A stretch of DNA of 64,000 nt from a virus. The DNA is taken from the IMG/VR virus record IMGVR_UViG_3300027836_000007, positions 42,813 to 106,812 of that record; one strand, 5' to 3'. The position numbers were made by a program, and so were the translations under genes. The notes beneath the pieces were generated by a model. It did no database searches. It was not told the DNA's origin and saw only the letters and a list, made by a program, of their open reading frames with translations. Of the stretch, positions 6,071 to 55,922 are shown piece by piece (position 1 is the stretch's first letter; each line of letters opens with the position of its first letter).

Positions 6071-7530
6071 TGCAACATTTTTACGATGGACAAATAAGAA
6101 GATATCTCACACAAACTATTCGTGTGTTTAGTAATTTTGTTGTCAAATACGGTGATGGAACACTTGTGCGTGTACCTGTTATGTACGGCGATGCCGATAA
6201 ACAAGCCGCTACTGTTGTACGTCAAAACTCAGAAAATAAAATTAACTCAGTACCTAAAATTGCTGTTTATATTTCTGGCCTGGCAATGGACACTACTAGA
6301 CTAAGCGATTCAACTTATGTAGGTAAGGTACATGTGCGTGAACGTGATATTAACGGTGATGTTTACACTACTGGACAAGGTAAGAATTATACTGTTGAAC
6401 GTATGATGCCTACTCCGTTCAAACTTACAATTAAAGTAGACATATGGACGGCCAACACTGACCAAAAATTACAACTACTTGAACAGATTTTAGTGTTGTT
6501 TAATCCAAGTTTAGAACTACAAACAACAGACAACTATATCGACTGGACTAGTTTAAGTGTTCTTAACTTAACCGGAGTTAATTGGTCAAGTAGACAAGTT
6601 CCAGTGGGAACAACTGACGCCATTGACATTGCTTCACTGACTCTCGAAACTCCAATTTGGATTAGTCCGCCAGTTAAAGTTAAACACCTTGGTGTTATTA
6701 CAAAAATTATTACCAGCTTGTATCAAGGATCTAGCACAGATTCTACCTACATTGACGGATTAGGTCAACCGTTAACAAATCCAGATGTAACACTGTCTTC
6801 ATTGTTGGCACAAGATGTTGTCACTATTACAGATTACAACATACAAGTGTACAACGGGCAAGCAATTTTATTAGCAAAAACTGAAAGCAGTGTTCCTAGA
6901 GAACCTACATTAGATATTCCTGTACGTCAAGGTACACCAATTCAATGGCAAGATGTATTCGATGTATATCCTGGCAAATACACTGCCGGGTCCAGCGCAT
7001 TGTATCTAACACAGCCTAACGGGGTTGAAGTAGTAGGAACTGTTGCTATCAGCCCGTTAGATCCAACACTACTTACTGTGGCGTGGGATAGTGACACTAT
7101 TCCAAGTGATACACTAATTGATAGCCAAGGACGATTAGATAATCATCCAGACTATGGAGATGGTGTACAACATCGCAGTGGCAGTCCAGGAACATTTGAT
7201 GCTATTGTTAATCCGCTTACATATAACCCAGCAACTCCAGATGCTGGTACTAGGTTGCTAATTGTAGAAGATATTGGCAGCGCAAATAATAGCGTACCAG
7301 CTGCCGCTTGGGGTACGTTAGTTGCTAATGCTAACGATATTATTGAGTGGACTGGCACTGAATGGAATGTAGTGTTTAATTCTGTTCAAGAAACCAGCAC
7401 TATGGTGTGGCAAACTAATATATACAAGAGCCAAGCAAACTTTAGAGTACAGTATGTCTGGAATGGCGTACAGTGGGCTAAGAGCTTTGAAGGCGAATAT
7501 AGGGTAGGCGAATGGAGACTAGAGCTTTAA
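6070..7530 (+). CDS. gp15: Proximal tail sheath stabilisation protein gp15-like
   Basis: Predicted tail terminator that caps the sheath and joins tail to neck. The start MQHFYDGQIRRYLTQTIRVF followed by VPVMYGD and PKIAVYISGL matches T4 gp15 in motif order (FYNSSFRRY, IRVPITYAS, LPRINLHL), and the segment TPFKLTIKVDIWTANTDQKLQLLEQILVLFNPSL matches the T4 pattern of a strand followed by an EQILPYF helix; it is abbreviated here to those landmarks. At 486 aa it is about 200 residues longer than T4 gp15 (272 aa). The extra C-terminal half contains DxxD-rich loops and a TWRV-type beta pattern of unknown role. It is translationally coupled to gp14 and overlaps the Nudix gene by 19 nt. Confidence 0.7.
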   Translation: MQHFYDGQIRRYLTQTIRVFSNFVVKYGDGTLVRVPVMYGDADKQAATVVRQNSENKINSVPKIAVYISGLAMDTTRLSDSTYVGKVHVRERDINGDVYTTGQGKNYTVERMMPTPFKLTIKVDIWTANTDQKLQLLEQILVLFNPSLELQTTDNYIDWTSLSVLNLTGVNWSSRQVPVGTTDAIDIASLTLETPIWISPPVKVKHLGVITKIITSLYQGSSTDSTYIDGLGQPLTNPDVTLSSLLAQDVVTITDYNIQVYNGQAILLAKTESSVPREPTLDIPVRQGTPIQWQDVFDVYPGKYTAGSSALYLTQPNGVEVVGTVAISPLDPTLLTVAWDSDTIPSDTLIDSQGRLDNHPDYGDGVQHRSGSPGTFDAIVNPLTYNPATPDAGTRLLIVEDIGSANNSVPAAAWGTLVANANDIIEWTGTEWNVVFNSVQETSTMVWQTNIYKSQANFRVQYVWNGVQWAKSFEGEYRVGEWRLEL

Positions 7531-7961
7531 CAGATAGAATAGTATGTAGCGGAGCATTGTTCTACGCCAAGTCTACACGAAGATTTCTACTGTTACAAAA
7601 AGCTCATGGTAAACATACTGGCACGTGGGGATTAGTTGGGGGTACAAACTTACAACACGAAAATCCATGGCAAGGTCTACAGCGTGAAGTCCAAGAAGAA
7701 ATTGGATCTATGCCCGCAGTAATTAAAACAATTCCATTAGAAACATTTGTGTCTAACGATAAAATCTTTAATTTTCACACATACTTGTGTGTAATACAAG
7801 ATGAATTTATTCCTGTATTAAGCGATGAACATTGTGCGTGGGCATGGTCAACTATTGATTATGCGCCAAAGCCCTTACATCAGGGACTGCGTAACAGCTT
7901 TTCAAACAAAACAATTCGTACTAAATTACAAACTGTATTTGATATAGTGGAGTTAATCTAA
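7512..7961 (+). CDS. Nudix hydrolase
   Basis: Predicted pyrophosphohydrolase of 149 aa acting on a nucleoside diphosphate linked to another moiety. The Nudix box G-x5-E-x7-RE-V-x-EE-x-G is complete at residues 44-65 (G44, E50, R58, E59, E62, E63, G65). The substrate cannot be told; T4 has NudE, which cleaves ADP-ribose, NADH and Ap3A, and mutasome-type Nudix enzymes also occur in phages. It starts inside gp15 (19-nt overlap) and ends in a TAATG junction with the first oxygenase, so it is the link between structural genes and the oxygenase cassette. No earlier in-frame start is plausible. Confidence 0.85.
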   Translation: METRALTDRIVCSGALFYAKSTRRFLLLQKAHGKHTGTWGLVGGTNLQHENPWQGLQREVQEEIGSMPAVIKTIPLETFVSNDKIFNFHTYLCVIQDEFIPVLSDEHCAWAWSTIDYAPKPLHQGLRNSFSNKTIRTKLQTVFDIVELI

Positions 7962-8533
7962 TGATTAAAAAAGCAGAATGTTGGATATTTCCGACCATTA
8001 TAAATGTTTATAATTTGTTAGATGTGGTCGATCTAACAGAAGTTAACGAAAAAATTGAAGAAACTGAAGTAGTTAACACTTATCATAAGTTGTTTAATGG
8101 CAAGGGTTTAAGAAGTAACTCTTCTCAGTTTTTGGATTCAAACGCAACTCTCAAGAATGCTATTCAGGAATGTATAGATCTGTATGCTGATCAACTAGGA
8201 CTATATCCGTGTAAACTAACCTATAGTTGGTGTAACATATATAGAGACGGCAGTACAATAAAGCCTCATCGACATGAACTCAGTTTAGTAAGCGGAGTAT
8301 TTTATAGTAAAACCGATGATGATTCAGGGCAACTGGTGTTTGATAACCCATGTCAGCCTTTTAAAGTCAATGAAATTTCTACGAGATTAACTGAATACAA
8401 CAGACAAGCATTTAACTTTGAAATTTCACCTGGAGATTTAATATTATTTCCCAGTTGGATGATGCATTATACTGAAAATAATTTTTCTAATCAACGATAC
8501 GTGGTTAGTTTTGACACAGGATTAAAACAATGA
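7961..8533 (+). CDS. 2OG-Fe(II) oxygenase 1 (PF13759/TIGR02466-like)
   Basis: Predicted non-haem iron, 2-oxoglutarate-dependent oxygenase, 190 aa. The double-stranded beta-helix signature is clear: SWCNIYRDGS leads to H103-R-H105, then SGVFYSK, GDLILFPSW, H169 as the distal metal ligand, and R179 for the 2OG carboxylate in QRYVVSFD. The proximal pair is HxH rather than HxD, which is usual for this family. The substrate is unknown. It is the first of eleven oxygenases in one polycistron and is coupled to the next gene by an ATGA overlap. Confidence 0.82.
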   Translation: MIKKAECWIFPTIINVYNLLDVVDLTEVNEKIEETEVVNTYHKLFNGKGLRSNSSQFLDSNATLKNAIQECIDLYADQLGLYPCKLTYSWCNIYRDGSTIKPHRHELSLVSGVFYSKTDDDSGQLVFDNPCQPFKVNEISTRLTEYNRQAFNFEISPGDLILFPSWMMHYTENNFSNQRYVVSFDTGLKQ

Positions 8534-9117
8534 GCTGGTTTATAAAAGATTTAAATTATACAAATGAGCCGTTTGCATACGCAACGGGTGTTCTTACAGA
8601 TGATGAAATAAAATTAGTAGAAATATTGGCTAGCAAAAGTACTATGCAAGGAGATGGCGCTTTAGAAGGCGGTATTTCTGACGAGGCAATACGTAAAAAT
8701 AAAATTTCCTGGCTTGAAGTCTGTGAAGAGTCTAAAGACCTTTACATAAAAATATCAAATGTTGTTCAGCAGCTAAATGAAAGATTTTATAGATACGATT
8801 TAACAGAAATGGAAAATTTACAGTATGCCGAATATCACTCAGATACACTAGGGCATTACACAACACACAGCGATGACGGTTACAAATATAATCTTTTTAG
8901 AAAATTAAGTCTAAGTATTCAACTGTCGGATGAATCGGAGTATCAAGGCGGCGAATTAGTATTCCATCGATTTTCAACAAACCATCCAGAAGCCGCGCCT
9001 AAAACCAAAGGAACACTAATTCTGTTCCCTAGTTATGTACTACATGAAGTAACTCCTGTAACAGAAGGCGTAAGAAAAAGTTTAGTTTCGTGGGTAGTAG
9101 GGCCAAGATTTAAATGA
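8530..9117 (+). CDS. 2OG-Fe(II) oxygenase 2, prolyl-hydroxylase-like (HxD type)
   Basis: A 195-aa protein resembling PKHD/prolyl-4-hydroxylase-type enzymes. LQYAEYHSDTLGHYTTHSDDG supplies H113-x-D115, followed by LSLSIQLSDES, YQGGELVFHRF, a buried GTLILFPSYVLH with distal H172, and R182 in EGVRKSLVSWVVG. The order and spacing match the P4H fold with a canonical 2-His-1-Asp triad. This type often hydroxylates protein or peptide side chains, but the substrate here is unknown. It overlaps both neighbours by 4 nt (ATGA). Confidence 0.85.
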   Translation: MSWFIKDLNYTNEPFAYATGVLTDDEIKLVEILASKSTMQGDGALEGGISDEAIRKNKISWLEVCEESKDLYIKISNVVQQLNERFYRYDLTEMENLQYAEYHSDTLGHYTTHSDDGYKYNLFRKLSLSIQLSDESEYQGGELVFHRFSTNHPEAAPKTKGTLILFPSYVLHEVTPVTEGVRKSLVSWVVGPRFK

Positions 9118-9740
9118 GATATTATATTGATACACTGTTTCCAACTTCGGTATATTATTCAGACCTTAACTGTATGGATAAACTGTTTGACTATGAACTC
9201 GATGTCTTTAAAATTTTTAAAGATATTGAAAACGATCCGCATCCGTTTGGCGAAAGTAGTTTAAGCACTTCCTTTTGGCACACTGAACACGGACACTTAT
9301 ACAACGATAGCAGATTTTCTGAGTTATCTTCAACTATACGTAAACAGGCAGTGTTATTCTGTGAAGCTTTGGGATATACTTCTTTAAAAGAAAATCAGTT
9401 AGTGTTCACAAACATGTGGGCAAACTTAATTGGACCTTACGATTATCATGCCCAACATATTCATAGTACTACTGGTAATGCTGCCATTAGTGGCGTATTT
9501 TATGTAGATTCCCCGCCTGGCGCAAAAATAAGTTTTGGTTCGCCTTATAGAGATTCCTACGAACCATTTAAGCCGTGGATTGATAATCCAGCAAATTTTT
9601 CTAAAGTATCATATGATTGTGTTCCTGGAAGATTAGTTATGTTTAAGTCTAATGTTTATCACGGTTATGATAGTCATCGTCAAGAAAAAAACAAAATAAG
9701 TATTCCATTTAATTTATCAATTATACCATATGCCGGTTGA
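9114..9740 (+). CDS. 2OG-Fe(II) oxygenase 3 (PF13759-like)
   Basis: A 208-aa member of the same family as oxygenase 1. It opens with DTLFPTSVYYSDL, the usual TLFPTPVY-type start, then MWANLIGPYDYHAQ leading to H115-I-H117, SGVFYVDSPPGAKISFG, and distal H183 in NVYHGY. Lys194 (EKNKISIPFN) stands where Arg normally binds 2OG, a conservative change. A non-overlapping, distinct sequence to oxygenases 1 and 4 suggests old divergence rather than a recent tandem copy. It overlaps the next gene by 11 nt. Confidence 0.8.
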   Translation: MRYYIDTLFPTSVYYSDLNCMDKLFDYELDVFKIFKDIENDPHPFGESSLSTSFWHTEHGHLYNDSRFSELSSTIRKQAVLFCEALGYTSLKENQLVFTNMWANLIGPYDYHAQHIHSTTGNAAISGVFYVDSPPGAKISFGSPYRDSYEPFKPWIDNPANFSKVSYDCVPGRLVMFKSNVYHGYDSHRQEKNKISIPFNLSIIPYAG

Positions 9741-10305
9741 ATATTTTTTTCCTACTCCTATATACTATTCTTTTGTAAAGAATTTAGAATCGATTCACTG
9801 CGAAGTTGATTCTCATCTTGCGTCAGTTAAAGATATTGACTTGATAAATCCCTGGGGAGATACCGTACAAACGACATTTAAGTACAGACAGCATAATCGT
9901 GTTTTAGATAATATGCCTACTCTGCTATCAGAAATTAAAGAAAATTGTCAAAATTTTTTAGAGACAATGAACCATCAAGTTGATAGCGTTGATATCGAAC
10001 AATCGTGGTGTAATATTTCAAACAGAGATTCATTTCAACATTTTCATATACACGGAGCTATGGATTTGTCAGGTGTGTATTACCATCAGACTACAAGTAA
10101 CGACGGGGACATTGTTTTTAGAAACCCGTCGCTAGTAAATAGATTTCATAAATTAACATATAATATTAACAATTCTGTCAACTATAAACCAGAAGTTGGT
10201 AAAATTATATTATTTCCTAGTTTTTTAGAACATGCTGTATTTCATAATACTTCAGACGATAAACGAATTAGTATATCATTTAATATAAACGTAAATTTAA
10301 AATGA
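9730..10305 (+). CDS. 2OG-Fe(II) oxygenase 4 (PF13759-like)
   Basis: A 191-aa enzyme of the same family. The N-terminus MPVEYFFPTPIYYS is the family's FPTP start. SWCNISNRDSFQHF leads to H106-I-H108, then DLSGVYYHQ, IVFRNPS, KIILFPSFLEH with distal H168, and R179 in DDKRISISFN. All three metal ligands and the 2OG Arg are present, so it should be active. The product is unknown. It overlaps the next gene by ATGA. Confidence 0.82.
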   Translation: MPVEYFFPTPIYYSFVKNLESIHCEVDSHLASVKDIDLINPWGDTVQTTFKYRQHNRVLDNMPTLLSEIKENCQNFLETMNHQVDSVDIEQSWCNISNRDSFQHFHIHGAMDLSGVYYHQTTSNDGDIVFRNPSLVNRFHKLTYNINNSVNYKPEVGKIILFPSFLEHAVFHNTSDDKRISISFNINVNLK

Positions 10306-10922
10306 AAGAAAATTACAAAATTTTACGAAATTTCTTTAAAAAAGAAAAATGTTTAGAGATGACTACTAAACTTAGTAATTTATTACAACGAGGAATTTAT
10401 AGAAATCCAGATTCGTTATGTACTTTGAGTCCTGCGTTCTACGGAATATTTAATGACGAGATGATAGAAATTCAAAAAAATATCGAAACACTAGTAGGAG
10501 AAGAATTATATCCATGCTATTCGTATGCTAGAATATATCAAAAACACGATATCCTCCCGCCACATACTGACAGACCAAGTTGTGAAATTAGCCTTACCGT
10601 AACTTTAAATTATGAAAAACATACATGGCCAATTTGGTTGATAGATCAGGGACAAGTTACAAGTATTGAACTAGATATTGGGGATATGTTACTGTATAAA
10701 GGAACAGAAGTCATGCATTTTAGACACCCCATGCAAGGACAAGAGTTTCAATATCAAGTGTTTTTTCACTACGTTAAAAAACAAGGCAATTACGCAAATT
10801 ACAAATACGACTTGAATACAAGTTTACTATCAAACTTAGAAGCAGAAGAACAAAATTTCCCAGAATGGACTGATGATCAGCCGGACCGGATCATAAATAG
10901 AGACGATAAGGATACAAATTAA
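10302..10922 (+). CDS. 2OG-Fe(II) oxygenase 5 (HxD type, atypical 2OG site)
   Basis: A 206-aa protein with YARIYQKHDILPPHTDRPSC giving H88-T-D90, followed by ISLTVTLNYE, a GDMLLYKGTEVMH segment with distal H139, and FQYQVFFHYV. The metal triad is complete. The Arg or Lys expected about ten residues after the distal His is not obvious (QGQEFQYQ), so 2OG binding may use R141 or differ. The last ~45 residues are acidic and unstructured (ending DRIINRDDKDTN). It is separated from the next gene by one base. Confidence 0.75.
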   Translation: MKENYKILRNFFKKEKCLEMTTKLSNLLQRGIYRNPDSLCTLSPAFYGIFNDEMIEIQKNIETLVGEELYPCYSYARIYQKHDILPPHTDRPSCEISLTVTLNYEKHTWPIWLIDQGQVTSIELDIGDMLLYKGTEVMHFRHPMQGQEFQYQVFFHYVKKQGNYANYKYDLNTSLLSNLEAEEQNFPEWTDDQPDRIINRDDKDTN

Positions 10923-10923
10923 T

Positions 10924-11529
10924 ATGAATACCAAACCATCTGAAATATTTTATTTAGAAGATGTACTAAGACAAAATACGTTTGACAACATTGTTGCCGA
11001 ATTAAAAAAACCAATCTGGCAATACGGTAGAGTTACTAATCCCGATCTGTGGGACGAGGATACAACAGTATTTTGGCAAGCCGATTTAAGTCTAAATACC
11101 CTAGTAGGGGAACAAGCATTTTATGAAATTATTGATAAATTGAACCAAATTGACTCTACTACACAGAATTACCAGTTTAAACTTTATAGTGCTATTGCTG
11201 GCGGTAAAACATTCGGGTTAGATGGCGGAATTCATACTGATAAAGACGTAGAATTTAACAACATGGGCGACGGATTCATGACCTTTTGTTTTTTCCCAAA
11301 CAGAGAATGGAATCCAGAATGGGGCGGCGAGTTTCAGTTCTTTGATCAGGAAGGAAATATAATTGCAACATACTATCCTAAGCCAAACACATGTTTAGTA
11401 TTTGATAGTAACATTCCGCACAGAGGGCTTGCACCTAATAGAGATTGTAAAAAGCTCAGGATGTACCTTTCTTTCAAAACATTTGTGAGTAAAAAATGGT
11501 ACTTGGACCAAAATAACAATGATTCTTAA
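10924..11529 (+). CDS. 2OG-Fe(II) oxygenase 6 (HxD type)
   Basis: A 201-aa protein with a canonical triad: GGIHTDKDVE gives H104-T-D106, distal H166 lies in SNIPHRGLAP and R179 in KKLRMYLSF. The NPEWGGEFQFFD stretch is typical of oxygenases that act on peptides or small molecules and have a WGGEL-type strand. The likely role is hydroxylation or desaturation of an unknown substrate. It overlaps the next gene by 11 nt. Confidence 0.82.
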   Translation: MNTKPSEIFYLEDVLRQNTFDNIVAELKKPIWQYGRVTNPDLWDEDTTVFWQADLSLNTLVGEQAFYEIIDKLNQIDSTTQNYQFKLYSAIAGGKTFGLDGGIHTDKDVEFNNMGDGFMTFCFFPNREWNPEWGGEFQFFDQEGNIIATYYPKPNTCLVFDSNIPHRGLAPNRDCKKLRMYLSFKTFVSKKWYLDQNNNDS

Positions 11530-12238
11530 TTTATTTTCATTACCGATATATAAAGTTAATATTTTAGATCAAATTGATACTGGTAATCTTGAAGAAAAGT
11601 TACAGTCTGAATTTGCTCGATCTTCTTCTGACCCAAGTGGTCTAGAAAAAAATGGCGGAGTAAGCACTTACGATACTAATTGTAATTTACATTTGGAAGA
11701 ATATACAAAAACAATATCAAATATTGTGTTACAACATGCTAGATTATATTGGAAAGTATTAGATGTTGATCCTAGATTAGAACCTAGGATCGATCAGTGC
11801 TGGTCAAATATACATTATAATAAAAGCATTACTATAGAACATTCTCATAGTTTATATCCTATTGTTGCTACCCTATATGTAAAATCTGAAAAACATTCAG
11901 GAGATTTAGTAATGATAAATCCAATGGAGTATGGGCTAACTCATATTCCGTACGGAGTTGCTATTGAAAATAAAACAGAAACTTCTATTAAAGTTTCGAC
12001 GGGAGATTTAGTATTGTTTCCAGGGTGGATTAGACATAAGACAACAGAAAATCTTTCAGATCAATCTAGAATTGTATTAAGTTTTAATATTCATTACCAA
12101 GGAACATATCTTGCGTCAAACAGTGACTATCTTGTGGATCATACGGTACATACTAGCGAAATTGATCAGTTACAGAATAAAATTCTAAAATTAGAATTTA
12201 TCATAGATCATATGCAACGGAGTTTAAAAAATGATTAA
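11519..12238 (+). CDS. 2OG-Fe(II) oxygenase 7 with C-terminal coiled coil
   Basis: A 239-aa PF13759-like oxygenase. The motif LEKNGGVSTYDT at 42-53 is shared almost exactly with oxygenase 9 (LEKNGGKSTYST), so these two are the closest pair. SNIHYNKSITIE leads to H108-S-H110, then GDLVLFPGWIRH with distal H173, and R184 in QSRIVLSFN. About 45 residues past the catalytic domain form a predicted helix with heptad-like spacing (IDQLQNKILKLEFIID), absent from the other copies. It could mediate dimerisation or docking. It overlaps the next gene by 8 nt. Confidence 0.82.
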   Translation: MILNLFSLPIYKVNILDQIDTGNLEEKLQSEFARSSSDPSGLEKNGGVSTYDTNCNLHLEEYTKTISNIVLQHARLYWKVLDVDPRLEPRIDQCWSNIHYNKSITIEHSHSLYPIVATLYVKSEKHSGDLVMINPMEYGLTHIPYGVAIENKTETSIKVSTGDLVLFPGWIRHKTTENLSDQSRIVLSFNIHYQGTYLASNSDYLVDHTVHTSEIDQLQNKILKLEFIIDHMQRSLKND

Positions 12239-12455
12239 AAAACCAAGAAGAATGCATTTAAATGAAAAAATACTACGTGTTCCTACGAAACTTTATGAAG
12301 AGCGACTAGCAATTTGTAAAACTTGTTACGCCTTCGATGCCGCTGGAGAAACAGGAGGTACTTGTAAAATTATAAATGTGCCTGTTACAGCTAAATGCGC
12401 TTTAAAATCTGGTTCTTGTCCGATGGGATTCTGGTCGTCTAATTATGACAATTAA
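12231..12455 (+). CDS. Small Cys-rich, probably zinc-binding protein
   Basis: A 74-aa basic protein with five cysteines: C29-x-x-C32, C45, C56 and C63, in the pattern ICKTCYAF, GTCKI, KCALKSGSCPMGFW. The Cys spacing suggests one structural zinc site. I do not recognise a named family; short proteins with a similar KCxxxxxxCPxGxW ending occur in marine phages. It overlaps oxygenase 7 by 8 nt and the next gene by 11 nt, so its expression is tied to the cassette. It may be an adaptor or carrier, but nothing in the sequence proves this. Confidence 0.6.
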   Translation: MIKKPRRMHLNEKILRVPTKLYEERLAICKTCYAFDAAGETGGTCKIINVPVTAKCALKSGSCPMGFWSSNYDN

Positions 12456-13146
12456 AATTGGTTACTGTCCTTGGTTTGAAAAAAATAATCGAACTACAAA
12501 TACTGCTCTTAACTATTATGGCTGGGCAGATTTGGCTTACTTTGATTTAGAACCGCTAGATACTTGGGAAAATTCAACAGCAAGGTATCATCAGTGTCCT
12601 GCGTTTGTAAAATATGTAAAAAATACATTTGTATTAAGAAATACAGTAGATTTAGTATTGCACTGGGACAAATATAACCAAGTAGTAAGCACAAATTTAC
12701 CCAAGGATGCGGCCGATGCGTTGGTAAGAACTCACTGGGGAGATTTTGATACTGACAAAGATCGCCCAATTGTTGCAATTAGTAATAGTTTTGTGTTTGT
12801 TGCAGATCAGCCAGTCTATGTCGAATTCTTACCTCCGTTTAATCATATTGATCATTCGTGGAGATTAATTCCCGGAATGTTTAATATCTTTTCGTGGCAA
12901 CGGCCTGTAGTAACTACTATTGAAATGTTAACAGACGAAGTTATTCTAAAACGTGGTCAGCCCATGGCTTATATTAGATTTAGATCTGACAACCCAAGTG
13001 ATAAGTTTGTTTTGAAAAAAATAGAACGTACTGAACAACTAGAACATGCTGTAAACAGTTGTCTCACATTAAAACAATATATGCCAAAATTAAGTTGGAA
13101 AATACATAACGCTATTAATAAGTTAAGGCCTAAAAAATGGCTGTGA
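12445..13146 (+). CDS. DUF6065-like protein A
   Basis: A 233-aa protein of unknown function. The layout is a CPAF motif at 51-54, FVFVADQPVYVEFLPPFNH around 116-134, LIPGMFNIFSWQRPV and a GQPMAYIRF turn near 171-179. This resembles the order I recall for DUF6065 proteins (CPA motif, a strand ending in a Pro-Asn-His turn, then a GEPF-type strand), as also seen in the 253-aa protein at 18326. It lies directly before the first halogenase-like gene and overlaps it by 10 nt. A role alongside the halogenases is inferred from position only. Confidence 0.55.
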   Translation: MTIKIGYCPWFEKNNRTTNTALNYYGWADLAYFDLEPLDTWENSTARYHQCPAFVKYVKNTFVLRNTVDLVLHWDKYNQVVSTNLPKDAADALVRTHWGDFDTDKDRPIVAISNSFVFVADQPVYVEFLPPFNHIDHSWRLIPGMFNIFSWQRPVVTTIEMLTDEVILKRGQPMAYIRFRSDNPSDKFVLKKIERTEQLEHAVNSCLTLKQYMPKLSWKIHNAINKLRPKKWL

Positions 13147-14606
13147 AGAAAGTAGCGATTCTAGGCGGGGGCACTTCTGGCTGGCTAACAGCAATATTTT
13201 TTAAAAAAGTTTGGCCGGCACTAGAAATTACAGTAATTGAAGATCCAAAACATCCTCCAATTATAGCAGGAGAAAGTTGCACAGCACCCTTTGTCGACTT
13301 GTTAGATTTTTTAAATATTGACGTAAACGACTGGATTAAAAAAGTAGATGCTTTTCCTAAATTAGGGGGAAAGTTTGAAGGCTGGGGCCCCAATAATTCT
13401 GATTTTGTACAACCGTTATTTTCTTCTTATAAGAATCGGTGGGATTATAAAAATCCAGAGTTTGGCAAAGATAATGTTCTACTCAAAGGATTACTTGCTA
13501 CAGGTTTACCCTTACATAAGATTACGGTGTCTGGTCATTTATTAGAAAATAATATAACACCTTTTACTTCTACCGGATTCGTAACTAGACCAATGTATCA
13601 TTTTGACAGCAGAAAAAATGCAGAATATTTTAAAAATATCGGCAAATCATTAAACATTAATCTAATTTTATCAAAATATCAGTCTTGTAAAATATCCGAT
13701 AATGGAATTGAAAGTTTAACTTTAGAAGATCAAGAAGTTTGTGCAGATTTTTATATCGATTGTAGTGGATTTAATCAGTTGTTATTAAAAAAAGCATTAG
13801 GAGTTGAATTTAAAAATTTTTCTAAATATTTCCCAGCAACTAGTGTAATAGCTTGGTGGGACGAATCAGATTTAAAACCATATTCAAGAATGATTGCCAT
13901 GGATTATGGCTGGCGATTTAATATAGACTTACGGTCTAGAAGTGGAAACGGTTATGTCTACGACGGGTCTTTAATTTCATCAGAACAAGCACAACAAGAA
14001 GTTGAAAGAAAACTTAATAAATCCGTTAATTTAGTTGCCAAAGCATCTTGGCAAGCTGAAATGGCTATTGAACCTTGGCAGAAAAATGTAATAGCAATAG
14101 GACTTAGTTCAGGATTTTTAGAACCGTTAGGATCAGGTGGTCATACTATGATTGCCTTGACTTTACAACTACTTTCAGAATTTTGGAACCCAGAAAAAGA
14201 AACACACGGCCATGCAACTACGCTATTAAATTCTCGATATAAAGACATTGTTGATGATACTGTAGATTTTATTTCATTACACTATCGAAATAACAGAAGT
14301 GATACTGAATTTTGGAGGAAACATTTATCGGAAGAAACTGTTCCTCAATCGTTAAAACTAAAAATTGAACAACTTAAATCTGGAAACTTTTACGATATTG
14401 GGGTTGCATACTCTTTAGAAAATTATGCCGTAGTATTACAAGCATACGAGTTAATTGATAAATCATTGTTAGCTAATATTATTCGTTACAAAAATGAAAA
14501 GTATTTAGATCAATGTATAGAAGAATATAACTTACTAAACAATCAAGCAAAACTAATAATCAAAGACTGTATTCCTACAACAGAATGGAAAAAATTATAT
14601 GATTAA
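13137..14606 (+). CDS. Flavin-dependent tryptophan-halogenase-like protein 1, degenerate active site
   Basis: A 489-aa flavoprotein of the tryptophan 7-halogenase fold. The FAD-binding GGGTSGW is at 10-16, a GES motif at 45-47 and the structural Lys75 in PKLGGKF, equivalent to PrnA Lys79. Two hallmarks are changed: the WxWxIP motif reads GWRFNI (258-263), and the EPLES segment reads EPLGS (329-333), so the Glu equivalent to PrnA Glu346 is Gly. Chemistry on HOCl transfer should therefore be altered or lost, although FAD binding looks intact. It overlaps the second halogenase gene by 8 nt and may act as its partner or on a different reaction. Confidence 0.8.
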   Translation: MAVKKVAILGGGTSGWLTAIFFKKVWPALEITVIEDPKHPPIIAGESCTAPFVDLLDFLNIDVNDWIKKVDAFPKLGGKFEGWGPNNSDFVQPLFSSYKNRWDYKNPEFGKDNVLLKGLLATGLPLHKITVSGHLLENNITPFTSTGFVTRPMYHFDSRKNAEYFKNIGKSLNINLILSKYQSCKISDNGIESLTLEDQEVCADFYIDCSGFNQLLLKKALGVEFKNFSKYFPATSVIAWWDESDLKPYSRMIAMDYGWRFNIDLRSRSGNGYVYDGSLISSEQAQQEVERKLNKSVNLVAKASWQAEMAIEPWQKNVIAIGLSSGFLEPLGSGGHTMIALTLQLLSEFWNPEKETHGHATTLLNSRYKDIVDDTVDFISLHYRNNRSDTEFWRKHLSEETVPQSLKLKIEQLKSGNFYDIGVAYSLENYAVVLQAYELIDKSLLANIIRYKNEKYLDQCIEEYNLLNNQAKLIIKDCIPTTEWKKLYD

Positions 14607-16083
14607 CAATTTAATAATTCTCGGCGGCGGAACTAGTGGACTAGTTAACGCAATTATATTAAAGTCTATCTACCAAAAGCTCAACATTACTATAGTAAAG
14701 TCCTCTGATGTTGGCATCATCGGCGTAGGTGAAGGTTCAACTGAACACTGGGCTCGTTTTATGCAAGTTGCAGGAATCTCCGTACACGAACTGTTAAAAG
14801 AAACAGATGCAACGTTTAAATCTGGTATAAAATTTATCAATTGGAATGGAGACGATGACTATTATTTCCATAGTGTTCACAGTCAATTTTTAACAGAAAG
14901 TTACAATGGTTCTAATAATATATATTTAAACATGATTGCAGGAGGAAAAACTCACCACGATATTATTCCTGATAACATTCATAAGTCAGTTCATTACGAA
15001 CCTTTAGAAGGAACAGTCAATCAATTTCATTTCAATACCATGAAACTTAATGATTATCTCATTAAGCAATGTTTAGTTAGAGATATAAAAATTATTGACG
15101 ATACAGTAGACGATGTTATTTTAGATGACACGGGCCATGTTTCAAAACTAATAGGCAAGTTAGGTGAATATTCGGCAGATTTTTTTATTGATTGTAGCGG
15201 TTTTAAACGTGTTATATCTTCTAAATTAGGTGCAAAGTGGGTAGACTGTTCAGACTATCTACCAATGAATTCAGCATTTGCATTCCCTACAGAAAAAATG
15301 GAAGATATTCCTTCACACACCCTTAGCACTGCAATGAGTTCAGGATGGATGTGGCGAATACCAACTAATGATAGATTTGGAAATGGTTATGTATATTGTG
15401 ATAAATTTATTACAGACGAACAAGCTATTGCAGAAGCACAATCTGTATTTCAAAAGCCTATCAACATTGCAAAGACATTTAAATTCACTGCTGGATATGT
15501 AGATAAATTTTGGATTAAAAATTGTGTGGCTGTTGGGCTGGCTGGGAGTTTTGTTGAACCGTTAGAAGCCAGTAGTATAGGAACTTCTATTCAACAGGCA
15601 TTTGGCATCGCCAACTCTTTAATAAATTACGAGGACGGTGATCAATCATTGATTGACAAATACAATTATGATTTTGAAAGCGTGGCTAAAAATATTATTG
15701 ATTTTGTTCAACTACATTATATAACTAAAAGAGAAGATTCTGCTTTTTGGAAAAATTGTAAAAATTTAAAATTAACTGAATTTAATCAACAAACATTAGA
15801 GCATTTTAAAAAATACGGTCCTAATACAACTTTCTTTAGTAAGCCATATATGCTTTTTAGGGAAGTAAATTGGTTATTAGTCATGCACGGCTTAAAAATG
15901 CTCGACATAGAAAGTATAAAGAATATGATGTCACAACAAAATGACGATATATTGTTTTCAACAAACGAACTTCAAAAAGATTTTAGTAAATTTGTTGAAA
16001 AACAAACTATGATTACTCATAGAGAATGTTTAGAAATTTTAAAATCTAGAAACTCCGTTCATGTTATCAGTATGGAACAGTGA
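14599..16083 (+). CDS. Flavin-dependent tryptophan-halogenase-like protein 2
   Basis: A 494-aa flavin-dependent halogenase homologue. GGGTSG is at 9-14, GVGEGS at 42-47, and Lys74 in FKSGIKF is at the catalytic Lys position. A complete WMWRIP (250-255) is the WxWxIP motif typical of halogenases as opposed to monooxygenases. FVEPLEASS has Glu323 at the PrnA Glu346 position. It should halogenate an aromatic, indole-like group using FADH2, O2 and a halide. The substrate may be free, as in VirX1 from cyanophage Syn10, or peptide-bound. No flavin reductase is seen in this window. Its stop overlaps the next ATG by one base. Confidence 0.85.
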   Translation: MINNLIILGGGTSGLVNAIILKSIYQKLNITIVKSSDVGIIGVGEGSTEHWARFMQVAGISVHELLKETDATFKSGIKFINWNGDDDYYFHSVHSQFLTESYNGSNNIYLNMIAGGKTHHDIIPDNIHKSVHYEPLEGTVNQFHFNTMKLNDYLIKQCLVRDIKIIDDTVDDVILDDTGHVSKLIGKLGEYSADFFIDCSGFKRVISSKLGAKWVDCSDYLPMNSAFAFPTEKMEDIPSHTLSTAMSSGWMWRIPTNDRFGNGYVYCDKFITDEQAIAEAQSVFQKPINIAKTFKFTAGYVDKFWIKNCVAVGLAGSFVEPLEASSIGTSIQQAFGIANSLINYEDGDQSLIDKYNYDFESVAKNIIDFVQLHYITKREDSAFWKNCKNLKLTEFNQQTLEHFKKYGPNTTFFSKPYMLFREVNWLLVMHGLKMLDIESIKNMMSQQNDDILFSTNELQKDFSKFVEKQTMITHRECLEILKSRNSVHVISMEQ

Positions 16084-16715
16084 TGGCTATAGAGCAAAAG
16101 TCTTTTCCAAATTACGGGTATTCAATGTCAGTTTTGCCCGACGACGTGTTATGTATAATTAAAGAAGAAATTAATAATTTACAAACTAACAGTAAAATTT
16201 ATAAAAATCTAGCAGGGCATTTAGAATCGCAACATTATCTAACAGAATCTCGAAACACATTATCTCCAATTATTTTAGAAATGGCGGCTGAGTATCTGCT
16301 TTCTTGGAATTTTAAAAACGAAGTACTTAGAAATAATCCAAAGGCAGATGTTATCTCTTTTAAATTAGATGATATTTGGGTAAATTTACAGAAAAAGACA
16401 GAGTATAATCCGTTACACGACCATTCTGGAGTTTTTAGTTTTGTTGCTTGGATCAACATACCCTACAATTTAGAAACAGAAATGAAACTGCCGAATGTCG
16501 AATCTTCAAATAACCCGTTAGCAACAACTTTTAACTTTGTCTATACTAATGTGTTTGGAGAGATTATTGCCTTGCCATTTTTTGCTGAGAAAAAACACGA
16601 AGGAACTATCATTTTTTTCCCGGCAAAGTTAAAACATTTAGTTTATCCATTTTTAACTTCAGAAGAGCATAGAATAACTATTTCAGGAAACGTGTCCCTT
16701 AACACCGCTGTGTGA
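16083..16715 (+). CDS. 2OG-Fe(II) oxygenase 8
   Basis: A 210-aa oxygenase starting at ATG 16083, chosen over the GTG three bases upstream because it forms the usual TGATG junction with halogenase 2. YNPLHDHSGVFS gives H112-D-H114, then SFVAWINIPY; GTIIFFPAKLKH carries distal H185, and R197 lies in EEHRITISGN. This type, with an extended insert between the two halves of the barrel (about 30 residues with NVESSNNPL), is common next to structural genes in marine T4-like phages. Its stop codon falls inside the inverted repeat at 16711-16732. Confidence 0.8.
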   Translation: MAIEQKSFPNYGYSMSVLPDDVLCIIKEEINNLQTNSKIYKNLAGHLESQHYLTESRNTLSPIILEMAAEYLLSWNFKNEVLRNNPKADVISFKLDDIWVNLQKKTEYNPLHDHSGVFSFVAWINIPYNLETEMKLPNVESSNNPLATTFNFVYTNVFGEIIALPFFAEKKHEGTIIFFPAKLKHLVYPFLTSEEHRITISGNVSLNTAV

Positions 16716-16732
16716 TAATTACATATATCACA
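16711..16732. promoter_or_regulatory. Inverted repeat in the only gap of the oxygenase operon
   Basis: TGTGATA and TATCACA form a perfect 7-bp inverted repeat around an 8-nt spacer. It overlaps the stop of oxygenase 8 and lies just before the strong SD (AGGAGA) of halogenase 3. It could be an operator or an mRNA hairpin resetting translation. There is no T-run, so it is not a convincing terminator. Confidence 0.4.
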
Positions 16733-16743
16733 TTAGGAGACAT

Positions 16744-18333
16744 ATGAGTAACGTGAATAAAATAGTGATAGTCGGTGGTGGTAGTGCTGGTTGGATGAGC
16801 GCAGCCACTCTGATTAAACATTTTCCAAATAAAGAAATTTATGTTATAGAAAGCCCCAATGTTCCCACTGTCGGTGTTGGTGAAAGCACTATTGGGCAAA
16901 TAAACGAATGGCTGTACGATCTTGATATCAAGGATGATGACTGGATGAAACAATGTGATGCCAGTTATAAGATGAGCATCAAGTTTACTAATTTCTATAA
17001 AGAAGATGCGGGTGCCTTTCACTATCCATTTGGTGTTCCAGTAGTTGAAGCCAAATTTTTTCCGTACGGAGTCAATGACTGGTATGTGAGGAAATCTGTT
17101 CATCCTGAGATACCGGTTTCTAATTTTGCGGACACATATTTCCCCGCAATGACATTAATTAATAAAAATAAAATTACCGACAATAAAAACAATGAAATAC
17201 CAGGCTGGAACTTTGATCGAGATGTGGCCTATCATTTTGATGCGGCAAAGTTCGGTGCTTGGCTGAGAGATTCGTATGCTGTTCCTAAAGGGGTAACACA
17301 TATACCTGCTGAAGTAACATCTATACAAACAAACAGCGAAGGTGTTGAACATCTTGTATTAGATAATGGCGATAAAGTTACTGCTGATTTATTTTTAGAC
17401 TGCACAGGATTTAAATCTATTATTTTAGATAAGACGATGAAGGTTCCTTTTGAAAGTTATAGTGATTTACTACCCAATAACAGTGCATGGGCTACACGTA
17501 TCCCATTTCAAGATAAAGAAAAAGAATTAGAACCGTTTACTAACTGTACTGCTATAGGTAATGGTTGGGTTTGGAATATTCCGCTATGGAGTCGAATTGG
17601 AACTGGATATGTTTACAGTGACGAATATATTTCAGACCAAGATGCATTAGAAGAATTTAAAGAATATTTACAAAAAGAAAGAGAAGTGCCAATTCCAAAA
17701 TCTGTCATTGACTCTTTAGAATTTAAAAATATTAAAATGCGTGTAGGAATACACAAAGAAATTTATCACAAAAATGTCTGTGGTATTGGGTTAGCTGCAG
17801 GGTTCATTGAACCATTAGAATCTAATGGTTTGTATACTGTTCACGAATTTTTATTAAAATTAGTTGCAATACTTAATAGAAATTCTGTAAGTCAATTTGA
17901 TAAAACTGCCTTTAATGAAGGATGTAGAGGAGATTTTAGAGCTTTTGCTGAATTCGTAGCCTTACACTATGCTATGAGTCACAGGGACCAAACTCCTTAT
18001 TGGCAGGCTGTGCAACATCGTGTATTTCCAAAAACTATGCCGTTGGGCGTATATGCTACATCTGGAATTGACAGTATAATACATAGAAAGTTTGTAAGCC
18101 ATTTATATGATATGGACATGGGCGGCACGTTGATGATAGCAACTGGCATGAACTTGTTTCCGTTTGACAGTAGTCTACTAAAAAGAACGCTGTTTAGAAA
18201 TTCTAATGCAGAATATCTGACCTACTTACAAGATGTTTGTTGGCATAAATGGGATGCTGACTTAGATCAAAGAAATGAATTTGCTGATTCTGCTCCAACA
18301 CTATATCAATATTTAAAAAGCAAATATGATTAA
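16744..18333 (+). CDS. Flavin-dependent tryptophan halogenase 3 (canonical motifs)
   Basis: A 529-aa halogenase with the full motif set: GGGSAGW at 11-17, GVGES at 44-48, Lys76 in YKMSIKF, WVWNIP at 275-280, and FIEPLES at 354-360 with Glu359 and Ser360 matching the PrnA Glu346/Ser347 pair. It is the copy most likely to be an active halogenase. It has its own strong SD (AGGAGA) and a 28-nt gap before it, unlike all others in the run, and its base use looks less AT-rich than the neighbouring oxygenases, so it may have joined separately. The known phage relative VirX1 iodinates diverse aromatic substrates. It overlaps the next gene by 8 nt. Confidence 0.87.
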   Translation: MSNVNKIVIVGGGSAGWMSAATLIKHFPNKEIYVIESPNVPTVGVGESTIGQINEWLYDLDIKDDDWMKQCDASYKMSIKFTNFYKEDAGAFHYPFGVPVVEAKFFPYGVNDWYVRKSVHPEIPVSNFADTYFPAMTLINKNKITDNKNNEIPGWNFDRDVAYHFDAAKFGAWLRDSYAVPKGVTHIPAEVTSIQTNSEGVEHLVLDNGDKVTADLFLDCTGFKSIILDKTMKVPFESYSDLLPNNSAWATRIPFQDKEKELEPFTNCTAIGNGWVWNIPLWSRIGTGYVYSDEYISDQDALEEFKEYLQKEREVPIPKSVIDSLEFKNIKMRVGIHKEIYHKNVCGIGLAAGFIEPLESNGLYTVHEFLLKLVAILNRNSVSQFDKTAFNEGCRGDFRAFAEFVALHYAMSHRDQTPYWQAVQHRVFPKTMPLGVYATSGIDSIIHRKFVSHLYDMDMGGTLMIATGMNLFPFDSSLLKRTLFRNSNAEYLTYLQDVCWHKWDADLDQRNEFADSAPTLYQYLKSKYD

Positions 18334-19087
18334 CTTTATTAAAGAGCTGTTTTCTAAAAAGAAAGAAATTATTACTTTTAGTTGCAAGGACTGGGCTATA
18401 CGAAAATATTCACCGGTTGAATTAGGGGAGCAAAAATTACCTCAGGAATATTTAGATTTACCTGTGGGGAAAATTTGCCCGTTTGAAAGAAAAAATCAAA
18501 GTTATCAACTTTCAGCAAGACAATGTCCGTCGATTAATTCTTTTTTAAAGTATGGATATGTTATCTCTGCTTGGTGCGATATAGAAATTAGTTTTGAAGA
18601 CGATCATGTGTACATCAAATATAGTAATTTAGATTATAATCACGATGTACACACAGAAAATCAATATCAAAAAATTATAGGTGATCAATTTGATGTTAGA
18701 CTAATTATAAAAATAAACAACCCGTGGCATATAAAAACCTTAGATGGATATAGTTGTTTCTGGATGCCAATTTACTATACAAATAAGAATTATCAAGCTA
18801 TTCCTGCTATAGTGGATACTGATTTGATGTTAAATGACTTACCAATTAATCTAGCATTTTTTGAAAAAAAATATACTTTGATAAAAATGGGAGAACCCTT
18901 AGTTAAAGTTATTCCTTTTCGTCGAGAGCCAATTGACGCTGTAAGCAAAAAATACGACTCTGCTGATGAAAATAGATTTTTAAATATCCTGGGATTAAAT
19001 GGACTTAGTAGATATAATTGGCGAGGGTTTATTACTGCAAAAAATAAGTTTAGTTTGGATAAAAAAGACTTAGACATTGAATCATGA
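18326..19087 (+). CDS. DUF6065-like protein B
   Basis: A 253-aa protein of unknown function. CPSINSFLKYGYVISAWCDIEI (residues 67 onward; landmarks CPS and WCDI) is followed by NNPWHIKTLDGYSCFWMP, AIPAIVDTDLML, INLAFF, and IKMGEPLVKVIPFRRE. The PWHIKT, VDTD and GEPLVKVIP signatures fit the DUF6065-like pattern better than protein A does. It directly follows the most canonical halogenase, while protein A directly precedes the degenerate one. The two are distant paralogues. It is translationally coupled on both sides. No catalytic residues can be assigned. Confidence 0.58.
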   Translation: MINFIKELFSKKKEIITFSCKDWAIRKYSPVELGEQKLPQEYLDLPVGKICPFERKNQSYQLSARQCPSINSFLKYGYVISAWCDIEISFEDDHVYIKYSNLDYNHDVHTENQYQKIIGDQFDVRLIIKINNPWHIKTLDGYSCFWMPIYYTNKNYQAIPAIVDTDLMLNDLPINLAFFEKKYTLIKMGEPLVKVIPFRREPIDAVSKKYDSADENRFLNILGLNGLSRYNWRGFITAKNKFSLDKKDLDIES

Positions 19088-19671
19088 TCAACTTGGAACC
19101 TATCAATCTTTGGCCTAGTTTAATACATAAATCTGTTTACCCTGGAGATTTGACAAATATTTCTAGTAAATTTTTGACACTCTTTAATGAAAATTCAAAT
19201 CATAATTTAGAAAAAAACGGTGGCAAGTCTACATACAGTACTGTAAACAACCTAATTACCGACCCAGTGTGCGGCAAACTAAAAGAATGGTTAATTCAAC
19301 AAAGTAAACTAGTTTGGGATTTATCTAATTTTGTTGATCGTCCAAGACGTGTGCATAGAAGTTGGGTAAACTTACATCCTCCAGGGGCATGGACTGATGA
19401 ACACGACCATGCAATGTGTCATCAAAACATTGTTGTTTATTTAAAACAACCTGAATTAGGTGGTAACATAATGTTTAAAGATCCTCTACAATACACATTT
19501 TCTGGATTTCCAAAAAATAATAAAAATGACTGGACAACATTGGAAGTTAAACAGAACGATGTAGTTTTTTTTCCTGGATTTTTACATCATAAAACAGAAA
19601 TTAACTCTAGTCAAGAAGATAGAATGGTTATGACTCTAACTATATCCGTGGATATATTTGCTGATGAATAA
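19084..19671 (+). CDS. 2OG-Fe(II) oxygenase 9
   Basis: A 195-aa PF13759-like oxygenase, the nearest relative of oxygenase 7 through the shared LEKNGG-x-STY motif at 42-51. SWVNLHPPGAWTDE leads to H107-D-H109, QNDVVFFPGFLHH carries distal H169, and R180 lies in EDRMVMTLTI. The metal set is three histidines plus the 2OG Arg. It lacks the coiled-coil tail of oxygenase 7. It begins in an ATGA overlap with the DUF6065-like gene. Confidence 0.82.
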   Translation: MINLEPINLWPSLIHKSVYPGDLTNISSKFLTLFNENSNHNLEKNGGKSTYSTVNNLITDPVCGKLKEWLIQQSKLVWDLSNFVDRPRRVHRSWVNLHPPGAWTDEHDHAMCHQNIVVYLKQPELGGNIMFKDPLQYTFSGFPKNNKNDWTTLEVKQNDVVFFPGFLHHKTEINSSQEDRMVMTLTISVDIFADE

Positions 19672-20254
19672 TTATAGAAACGTAACATTATTAGGAAAAA
19701 TTCCACTACTCACTAGTCAGTGGTCAGAATTCGATAACTATAAAAAAGACATCGTTGATCTTTGTTTAAAACTTGAAGTTCCTAATACGATAGAATCTAA
19801 TATAGCAGTTCATGCGAAATCAGATTTGTGGGAATCGTCTTTCGATTTTTTAGAAAAACAAACAGATATTAATAATTTAAAATTATGGCTGATACAGGAA
19901 TCTACTGAATTAATCAATAATTTTAACAATAGTAATTACAGAACAGTTATAACAGAAAGTTGGGCACATGTTACTAGGGCAAGTGGATATCATAAACCTC
20001 ATTATCACTGTGGCTCAACTTGGTCCGGCATTTTTTATGTTGCTGGTGAAACTAATAAAGGAGGAAGTAATAATTGGTACTTGCCTTATTACGTAGAAAG
20101 ACAGCCTGGGTTAGAATTTGCAGATAGTATGTACACTGTTAATTGCCAGCCCGGAACATTAGTGTTATTTCCCAGTATGCTACTTCATGATGCTGATGTG
20201 TATCAAGGAACCCAACCGAGGATAGTTATTTCTTTTAATTCCATATGCTTATAA
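19664..20254 (+). CDS. 2OG-Fe(II) oxygenase 10
   Basis: A 196-aa oxygenase starting at ATG 19664, which overlaps the previous stop by 8 nt; an in-frame TTG six bases earlier is less likely. SWAHVTRASGYHKP leads to H113-Y-H115, then SGIFYVAGET; GTLVLFPSMLLH carries distal H175, and R186 lies in QPRIVISFN. A longer loop (NWYLPYYVERQPGLEF) between strands may shape a distinct substrate pocket. It overlaps the last oxygenase by 10 nt. Confidence 0.82.
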   Translation: MNNYRNVTLLGKIPLLTSQWSEFDNYKKDIVDLCLKLEVPNTIESNIAVHAKSDLWESSFDFLEKQTDINNLKLWLIQESTELINNFNNSNYRTVITESWAHVTRASGYHKPHYHCGSTWSGIFYVAGETNKGGSNNWYLPYYVERQPGLEFADSMYTVNCQPGTLVLFPSMLLHDADVYQGTQPRIVISFNSICL

Positions 20255-20841
20255 TAGACGACGTTATTGTGTTAGACGATATTGTTCCTAAACAATATCA
20301 AGATTTGATAGAAACTCAAATGTTAGGTGACAATATACATTGGCACTACATGAGAGACATAACCTTTGATGTTGAAAAACTCAATGAGTTAAAGGTTACT
20401 GTTGCTAAACCTGCATTTGCTCACAAATTTTACGACAGGACTGCTGGGATTATTAGCCCTGGATATGGATTAGTATTGCCCATTGTGTACAATGCTTGCG
20501 AAAAAATTAAGTTTCATGTAAACGAAGTTATTGCCGCAAGGAGTTTTTTAACTATTCCCCTTCCAAATCTAGAAAGCGCCCTAGATCATCCGCATGTTGA
20601 TAGAGAAGTTTCTCACATAGTAGTTCTATATTATGTTACAGATTCTGACGGAGATACTGTGATATATGACAAAACTTTTAGAGATGTCTCTCCTGATCAT
20701 CTTAGAAAAGAAGATTTACAAATTTTTAAAAGTGTTACGCCTAAAAAGGGAAGAGCCATCGTATTTGATGGCTCTCGATATCACACTAGCACTAGGCCAA
20801 CTACTGGACACAGATGTGTAGTTAACTTTGGTGTATGGTAA
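20245..20841 (+). CDS. 2OG-Fe(II) oxygenase 11 (HxD type)
   Basis: A 198-aa oxygenase with DHPHVDRE giving H117-V-D119, then HIVVLYYVTDSDGDTVIYD; distal H180 lies in SRYHTS and R190 in TGHRCVVNFGV. This is a canonical 2-His-1-Asp triad with the DGDTxxY strand common in phage and marine bacterial oxygenases. It is the last gene of the plus-strand run. Its TAA touches the stop codon of the opposing fibre chaperone gene with no base between, so no intergenic terminator exists. Confidence 0.82.
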   Translation: MLIIDDVIVLDDIVPKQYQDLIETQMLGDNIHWHYMRDITFDVEKLNELKVTVAKPAFAHKFYDRTAGIISPGYGLVLPIVYNACEKIKFHVNEVIAARSFLTIPLPNLESALDHPHVDREVSHIVVLYYVTDSDGDTVIYDKTFRDVSPDHLRKEDLQIFKSVTPKKGRAIVFDGSRYHTSTRPTTGHRCVVNFGVW

Positions 20842-21237: not shown

Positions 21238-21253
21238 GTTCCTAATTCCTATT

Positions 21254-22201: not shown

Positions 22202-22207
22202 AATTTT

Positions 22208-23713: not shown

Positions 23714-23719
23714 AATATT

Positions 23720-55587: not shown

Positions 55588-55589
55588 TC

Positions 55590-55913: not shown

Positions 55914-55922
55914 ATTCTTTCC

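Follow-up and report, generated by a model that had tools for sequence, protein, structure and literature searches.

The window, as the analysed DNA is called here, is a stretch of 64,000 nucleotides (nt) from the IMG/VR virus record IMGVR_UViG_3300027836_000007 (positions 42,813 to 106,812), the record itself being a 106.8-kb fragment. Inspection of its open reading frames (ORFs) locates a cassette of 17 genes, all on the + strand, between positions 7961 and 20841. According to Pfam and PHROGs, these comprise eleven 2-oxoglutarate (2OG)-type oxygenases, three PF04820 halogenases (HA, HB, and HC), two DUF6065-like proteins, and one DUF6171-like Cys-rich protein (C8). The original prediction, made from the sequence alone, had placed all 17 genes at this position and strand, and the homology search upheld its family counts. 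The right flank, encoded on the opposite strand, begins with a 168-aa ORF, after which come three genes for Gly-rich fibre proteins and then fibre ORFs of very large size. The 168-aa ORF is referred to as 'wac', which is a working label of this analysis and does not denote fibritin. Comparison of gene order reveals a single linkage group, made up of two or three gp38-like adhesins, 'wac', a VirX1-clade halogenase, DUF6065, and several 2OG-type oxygenases, which is common to two distant phage groups: the PA5oct-like jumbo phages and the Kyanoviridae cyanophages.

Linkage of the cassette to a Gly-rich adhesin subfamily

The adhesins of the window contain 30-33% Gly, possess a Gly-rich C-terminal domain, match PF21722, and are located at the fibre locus. 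BLAST with the window's own adhesin returned only two records, probably because Gly-rich sequence is masked, and scans of IMG/VR with DNA patterns were used instead. The first pattern represented the peptide GESGGAGGY(A/S)E and did not include the halogenase in the query. Among the matches listed it gave 117 loci, 60 of them with at least 2.5 kb downstream; a halogenase was found in 60/60 of the latter (within 2.5 kb in 59), and 'wac' stood beside the adhesin in 60/60. As a control, a second DNA pattern was taken from another part of the adhesin fold, covering the same hidden Markov model family without that peptide. Also among the matches listed, this control gave 117 adhesins, 60 with enough DNA, of which 44 had 'wac' and 6 a halogenase. 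Five of these six carry a variant of the motif, while the sixth is outside the decided set. When the motif was relaxed, the loci among the matches listed comprised 96 with halogenase and motif, 39 with neither, one with the motif alone, and none with the halogenase alone. The sole discordant locus (L390) belongs to a contig that ends inside the DUF6065/2OG cassette, before any halogenase is visible. Of the 96 doubly positive loci, again among the matches listed, 91 have a VirX1-clade enzyme as the halogenase nearest to the adhesin.

The association is also observed in the reverse direction. Fourteen jumbo contigs selected by homology to HB without use of the motif, some of them near-duplicates, and the record of the window all hold two or three motif adhesins. 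BLAST with the adhesin of S-CREM1, encoded at 55301-56104 of its record, retrieved 20 isolate records (11 phage names), with a halogenase within a few kb in 20/20. Among 13 named isolates, the relaxed motif is present in the four with a cassette halogenase and in none of the other nine; in S-B64, S-MbCM6, P-SSM2, Sf-CH11, and HTVC008M the halogenase is elsewhere and the adhesin motif is absent. In Syn10, S-RIM44, S-CREM1, Sf-FP1, and P-RSM6, the gene order is Gly-rich fibre genes, 'wac' homologue, one or two halogenases, DUF6065 (in 4/5), and 2OG/JmjC oxygenases, followed in some by neck genes; the pelagiphage Mosig has a 2OG block at the corresponding site without halogenase. Every sampled locus with a VirX1-type halogenase near the adhesin contains, as judged from the motif, an adhesin of the subfamily ExGGxGGYxE...Y...N...H...H. 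In the second adhesin of the window (ORF 22208-23713), the residues that mark this halogenase-linked subfamily are E346, Y353, E355, Y380, N405, H410, and H433. Across 73 non-redundant linked adhesins, E346, E355, Y380, H410, and H433 are invariant and Y353 is conserved in 92%; these residues are rare in 27 unlinked ones. These positions are no more than candidates, either for modification or for a binding site held in common, and the two invariant Glu and two invariant His might just as well form a metal site. His is abundant in the linked adhesin domains: 3.6-4.7% in the window (21254-24682) and up to 7.8% in S-CREM1, compared with 0.7% in other structural ORFs.

The comparison of gene order proposed together with the original prediction found the cassette order again in independent contigs (L054, L055, L056, L010, and L011), and on this ground a chimeric assembly of separate genomes is rejected. 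The order is reshuffled in L013 and L045, and in a second architecture (L023, L025, L039, L043, L049, and others) one strand encodes three halogenases, while the oxygenases, DUF6065, and in many cases an additional halogenase lie on the opposite strand. Other phages carry separate orthologues of each cassette slot, and within the window the oxygenases share about 22-30% pairwise identity, leaving aside one short match; the slots are therefore not fresh duplicates, and an origin as eleven recent paralogues is rejected. The ratio of nonsynonymous to synonymous substitution rates (dN/dS) against the closest relatives is mostly 0.03-0.25, with higher values in a few short or nearly identical genes, which indicates that the cassette genes are kept as proteins. 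Between the window and L054, gp14 and gp15 are 66-80% identical, while the region from about 8.5 to 22.4 kb, where L054 ends, is mostly 93-100% identical; dS is mostly 0.01-0.26 for the cassette, 'wac', and adhesin 1, versus 1.6-1.8 for gp14/gp15. The cassette, 'wac', and adhesin 1 thus appear to have been transferred together. Extra cassette ORFs, SGNH-hydrolase-looking and with no family match, are found at L045:5005-5754 and L013:6003-6653, and an AMP-binding enzyme lies near the cassette in L049 (L049:1-1237).

Cassette enzymes and insertion site

The junctions of the cassette (Table 1) mostly overlap by 4-14 nt; two are open instead, by 1 nt at 10922/10924 and by 28 nt ahead of ORF 16744, which is preceded by a good ribosome site. 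Overlaps had been predicted, though in a range of 1-11 nt that did not hold. O16 more probably starts at the ATG at 19664 than at the TTG at 19658. The G+C content is 32-34% in the cassette versus 39-46% in the nearby flanks, and gp14-like, gp15-like (PF16724), and Nudix genes form the left flank. At 20841/20842 the final gene of the cassette meets the first gene of the opposite strand, their ends lying on neighbouring bases with no space for a terminator between them.

Table 1. Cassette genes and immediate neighbours, with window coordinates and basis of assignment
Feature	Position	Strand	Basis
Nudix hydrolase	7512..7961	+	PF00293 1.7e-13; backbone, not cassette
O1: PF13759 oxygenase-like, HxH...H	7961..8533	+	family match and motif
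O2: PF13640 2OG oxygenase, HxD...H	8530..9117	+	family match and motif
O3: PF13759 oxygenase-like, HxH...H	9114..9740	+	family match and motif
O4: PF13759 oxygenase-like, HxH...H	9730..10305	+	family match and AF2 model (pLDDT 93)
O5: distant 2OG oxygenase, HxD...H	10302..10922	+	phrog_2954 ('ferrochelatase' label)
O6: 2OG oxygenase, HxD...H	10924..11529	+	PF13640 / phrog_274
O7: PF13759 oxygenase-like, HxH...H	11519..12238	+	family match
C8: 74-aa Cys-rich, DUF6171-like	12231..12455	+	Pfam just below cut-off; phrog_13558
D9: DUF6065-like, dUTPase-like fold family	12445..13146	+	phrog_17480/7084, alignment, family model
HA: flavin halogenase	13137..14606	+	PF04820 2.2e-76
HB: flavin halogenase	14599..16083	+	PF04820 3.1e-99
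O12: PF13759 oxygenase-like, HxH...H	16080..16715	+	family match
HC: flavin halogenase, VirX1 clade	16744..18333	+	PF04820 6.5e-104; tree
D14: DUF6065-like, predicted dUTPase-like fold	18326..19087	+	family match, model
O15: PF13759 oxygenase-like, HxH...H	19084..19671	+	family match
O16: PF13759 oxygenase-like, HxH...H	19658..20254	+	family match
O17: 2OG oxygenase, HxD...H	20245..20841	+	phrog_274
168-aa 'wac' ORF, YPPMGDQLDML motif	20842..21348	-	phrog_1787
Gly-rich gp38-like tail-fibre adhesin 1 (ESGGAGGYAE)	21254..22201	-	family, motif
Gly-rich adhesin 2 (GESGGSGGYAE)	22208..23713	-	PF21722 2.4e-07, motif
Gly-rich adhesin 3 (GESGGAGGFTE)	23720..24682	-	family, motif

HA, HB, and HC are flavin-dependent halogenases by family, with PF04820 matches of 258-349 bits against a curated cut-off of 21 (E 2e-76 to 7e-104). 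The flavin motif GxGxxG (G11/G13/G16), the catalytic Lys K76, and Glu E356 (HC numbering) are conserved in 100% of 102 halogenases, and WxWxIP is intact in HC (WVWNIP) and HB (WMWRIP). In the tree, HC nests among the cyanophage VirX1-type enzymes, while HA and HB are separate clades; the best PDB match of HC is VirX1 itself (6qgm, 396 bits, residues 3-526 aligned end to end). HB, with 47 loci, is the most widespread halogenase slot among the jumbo contigs.

The eleven oxygenases keep their family membership, as originally predicted, but the canonical iron triad HxD/E...H is absent from the seven PF13759 ORFs, which carry H-x-H instead, and is present in O2, O5, O6, and O17. The presumed metal site of PF13759, His-x-His...His, is found in 100% of 145 aligned members, and about 10 residues past the distal His stands an Arg (93%) or Lys (6%); this Arg is conserved in 97% of the O6/O17 family and is not seen in O5. 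A double-stranded beta-helix was modelled for O4, and the other ten ORFs are assigned by family match; the top matches of the O4 model are 3bvc and 2rg4 (the two solved PF13759 proteins), followed by prolyl hydroxylases (P4H/PHD). Judging from strand positions in the model, two His of PF13759 would stand where HxD does. O2, O6, and O17 match PF13640/phrog_61/phrog_274, and O5 carries HxD...H in spite of its 'ferrochelatase' label. A WelO5-type 2OG halogenase was rejected for O5 because the carboxylate ligand is kept (HTD; weak Pfam match, 0.015). The PHROG labels are misleading in this respect, since phrog_2954/3531 ('ferrochelatase') and phrog_274 ('DNA endonuclease V') include proteins with a 2OG HxD...H site, and public phage annotations copy these names. 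A JmjC/cupin-8 protein (phrog_8014) occurs in many sister cassettes (L023:17513-18235, L060:15114-15824, L144) and is absent from the window.

The two DUF6065-like ORFs have weak or no Pfam matches and solid matches to phrog_7084/17480. The DUF6065 model (pLDDT 75) looks dUTPase-like in fold: the top 50 Foldseek matches are all dUTPases (E 3e-5 to 8e-4), with low query TM scores of 0.27-0.36. By eye, motifs resembling dUTPase motifs I, III, and IV are seen in the alignment and II and V are not; the DUF6065 profile has no match among PDB sequences. Since sequence search does not find the dUTPase family PF00692 in these phages, the likeness is a hint of fold and not of activity. DUF6065-like proteins of haloarchaeal tailed viruses (HF2, HRTV-11; L141, L142) lie near ribonucleotide reductase (RNR) or thymidylate synthase, unlike those of the cassette. 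C8 has the conserved columns C-x2-C...C...CPxGxW and is probably Zn-binding; a C8-like partner beside DUF6065 in Syn10 and S-CREM1 was rejected, as the 73-aa ORFs there are unrelated.

By terminase and synteny, the nearest relatives of the phage backbone are the PA5oct-like (Arenbergviridae) jumbo phages: the terminase is 52.9% identical to that of the PA5oct group of Pseudomonas phages, and the order gp14-gp15-Nudix also occurs in the Arenbergviridae phage Paride. Two cassette-bearing relatives are found on contigs of 270 and 278 kb. The earlier description of the region as T4-like holds in a broad sense (gp15-like and neck genes) and fails if a marine T4-like cyanophage is meant; a cyanophage origin is rejected on the terminase and on the absence of psbA from 15 contigs. 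At the same site Paride (with Phosso, the L155/L156 pair) has gp15, Nudix, one 202-aa ORF, and then opposite-strand genes, which by its gene order is a near-empty version of the cassette site. Nudix as a cassette member is rejected, because the gp15-Nudix pair also occurs in Paride/PA5oct. Phosso carries NAD-metabolism genes (NadE, NAPRTase, NMNAT) after gp15. With one ORF in Paride, NAD genes in Phosso, and the cassette in the window (7512-20841), the post-gp15 site looks like a cargo hot spot. A Nol-like carbamoyltransferase lies about 21 kb to the left of the window in the same contig (L152:433-1899).

Proposed adhesin maturation and alternative functions

The preferred interpretation is that of a late, horizontally exchanged 'adhesin plus maturation' module that oxidises and halogenates the adhesin, to which a probability of about 0.5 is assigned. 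The more specific proposal that the native target of VirX1 is the phage's own Gly-rich adhesin, attachment being set by tip chemistry besides sequence through a protein-maturation system, is advanced tentatively, at somewhat under even odds. The original prediction had envisaged multi-step oxidation and halogenation of either a virion fibre or a metabolite; the adhesin linkage in both search directions, together with the apparent co-transfer, favours the fibre, while hydroxylation is not certain, since the majority of the oxygenases carry three His in place of the canonical 2OG site. The active site of VirX1 is unusually open and accepts bulky aromatics, and many small aromatics are halogenated in vitro (PMC8407142), while tips of the gp38 type consist of a polyglycine scaffold that bears receptor loops (PMC12892980); adhesin maturation by the cassette would be the most economical reading. 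The likeness of the PF13759 model to prolyl hydroxylases, some of which act on proteins, would count in the same direction.

In such a scheme, the cassette enzymes would act late on the adhesin itself. A host reductase would supply reduced flavin to the halogenase, which would put halogen on an exposed aromatic (the best candidates being Y380 and Y353 of ORF 22208-23713), and the oxygenases would add hydroxyl groups to further side chains, such as those of Asn and His in the Gly-rich loops, each site or each tandem adhesin being served by its own slot-specific enzyme. An oxidised and halogenated tip of this kind would differ from the encoded sequence in its hydrogen bonding, its stiffness, or its contacts with the receptor. 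DUF6065 and C8 may be structural or targeting partners, which is the weakest step.

Several points weigh against this interpretation. The motif was relaxed only after its variants had been seen, the contigs in the adhesin scans are partly redundant with locus counts taken from the matches listed, and some halogenases occur without a motif adhesin. The linked adhesins come close to forming a single clade (3 parsimony changes among 100 non-redundant domains, with pairwise identity down to 37%), so that the residue correlation may reflect shared ancestry and not chemistry, and Fisher p-values on loci overstate independence. WxWxIP is partly lost in HA (GWRFNID). The PF04820 enzymes known so far mostly have small molecules as substrates. 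No PF03358 or PF01613 flavin reductase was found in the jumbo contigs searched, and a phage-borne reductase of these two families is rejected there. Finally, we infer late expression from position only, and the adhesin as enzyme substrate likewise from gene linkage.

The main rival, considered unlikely, is that the enzymes modify the host surface molecule bound by the adhesin, which would block re-adsorption or keep progeny from being lost to debris. Covariation of adhesin and enzyme would then follow from their matching the same receptor, and the adhesin linkage is explained equally well. Phage O-antigen-modifying genes are a precedent, and the Nol-like carbamoyltransferase of the same contig counts on this side. 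However, by Pfam and PHROGs the cassette has no glycosyl- or acyltransferases, it would be odd to need so many enzymes for one receptor, and flavin and 2OG enzymes in the cytosol would have no access to the outer surface, although precursors could be acted on. Somewhat less likely still is small-molecule chemistry, in which an aromatic or peptide metabolite of the host would be halogenated and hydroxylated to give, for instance, a protective antibiotic, a signal, or a defence inhibitor. It agrees with the usual substrates of PF04820 and with the in vitro activity of VirX1 (PMC8407142), and antibiotic protection has been proposed by earlier authors (PMC2984593, PMC9964418). Nevertheless, the cassette contains no scaffold-making, ligase, or export gene, small-molecule chemistry leaves the link to one adhesin subfamily unexplained, and the fibre-gene adjacency is kept across unrelated phages.

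That the gp15-Nudix/fibre site simply collects genes, the adhesin linkage being one recombination unit, is improbable. The block is indeed exchanged, the linked adhesins are nearly one clade, and the similar site holds NAD-metabolism genes in Phosso and a single ORF in Paride; but among the matches listed, same-fold adhesins in a 'wac' context (44/60) are mostly without halogenase (6/60), and the linkage survives rearranged architectures and two phage groups. Modified nucleotides made by a dUTPase-like DUF6065 with Nudix, oxygenases, and halogenases are very improbable: the predicted fold and the halovirus relatives near thymidylate synthase or RNR would fit, but Nudix belongs to the backbone, PF00692 has no match in these phages, dUTPase motifs II and V are not seen, and the cassette sits among virion genes.

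The association of cassette and adhesin suggests, without proving it, that this large aquatic phage chemically modifies the part with which it grips its host. VirX1 has been studied thoroughly as a biocatalyst and still lacks an assigned natural substrate, and the numerous 2OG oxygenases of aquatic phages likewise await an explanation; linkage to the adhesin makes both a single testable question in the culturable Syn9, Syn10, S-CREM1, and S-SZBM1. If the proposal is true, virions may bear halogenated and hydroxylated receptor-binding proteins that proteomics using standard modifications would miss, and tip chemistry would not be readable from the adhesin gene alone.

Comparison with known systems

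To our knowledge, no modifying enzymes stand beside enterobacterial gp38. The window adhesins resemble gp38 of T2, S16, and PP01 in their Gly-rich tip with variable loops (PMC12892980), and the adhesin homologues of syn9 and Syn33 are annotated gp38; no sequence match to solved gp38 was found in the PDB. Among bacterial PF04820 enzymes, the nearest relatives (Cellvibrionaceae, Caulobacter, Xanthomonas, and Alteromonas) are 28-35% identical to HB. Their loci differ, the neighbours being mostly a large ORF of some 1000 aa and additional halogenases, with PF13759 in 4 and DUF6065 in 0 of 80 loci; a bacterial source cluster is therefore rejected. The neighbouring ORF has the size of a TonB receptor, judged by size alone.

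The closest relative of HC with a solved structure is VirX1 of Syn10 (PDB 6qgm), which belongs to the same clade. Earlier work regarded VirX1 as a solitary gene, and the original prediction cited it as a single tryptophan halogenase; it is instead found inside a sister cassette with adhesin, 'wac', DUF6065, and 2OG genes. The window adds the HA and HB lineages and a jumbo backbone. Cyanophage halogenases and 2OG oxygenases have been listed since 2010 (PMC3037559, PMC2984593), and the view that marine T4-like phages carry a few of these oxygenases gives way to the 24 reported in S-SCSM1 (PMC9602691) and the 10 in S-CREM1 (PMC9964418). Both phages have many divergent PF13759/PF13640 oxygenases, as the window does, and the block also occurs in S-CREM1, where it includes a halogenase, DUF6065, JmjC, and a 'collagen-like' adhesin; in S-SCSM1, by contrast, the oxygenase genes are scattered and no halogenase is present within the stretch examined, and this phage carries no adhesin with the motif. 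Their authors took the oxygenases as auxiliary metabolic genes, and the roles proposed so far are nitrogen sensing, DNA repair, antibiotic protection, and host reprogramming (PMC3037559, PMC2984593, PMC9602691, PMC9964418). Searches of the open-access literature, which does not include the original VirX1 paper, found no report that ties phage halogenases or 2OG oxygenases to a tail-fibre adhesin. Multi-2OG phages and VirX1 were already known; as far as checked, what is new is the link between a VirX1-type halogenase-oxygenase cassette and a Gly-rich adhesin.

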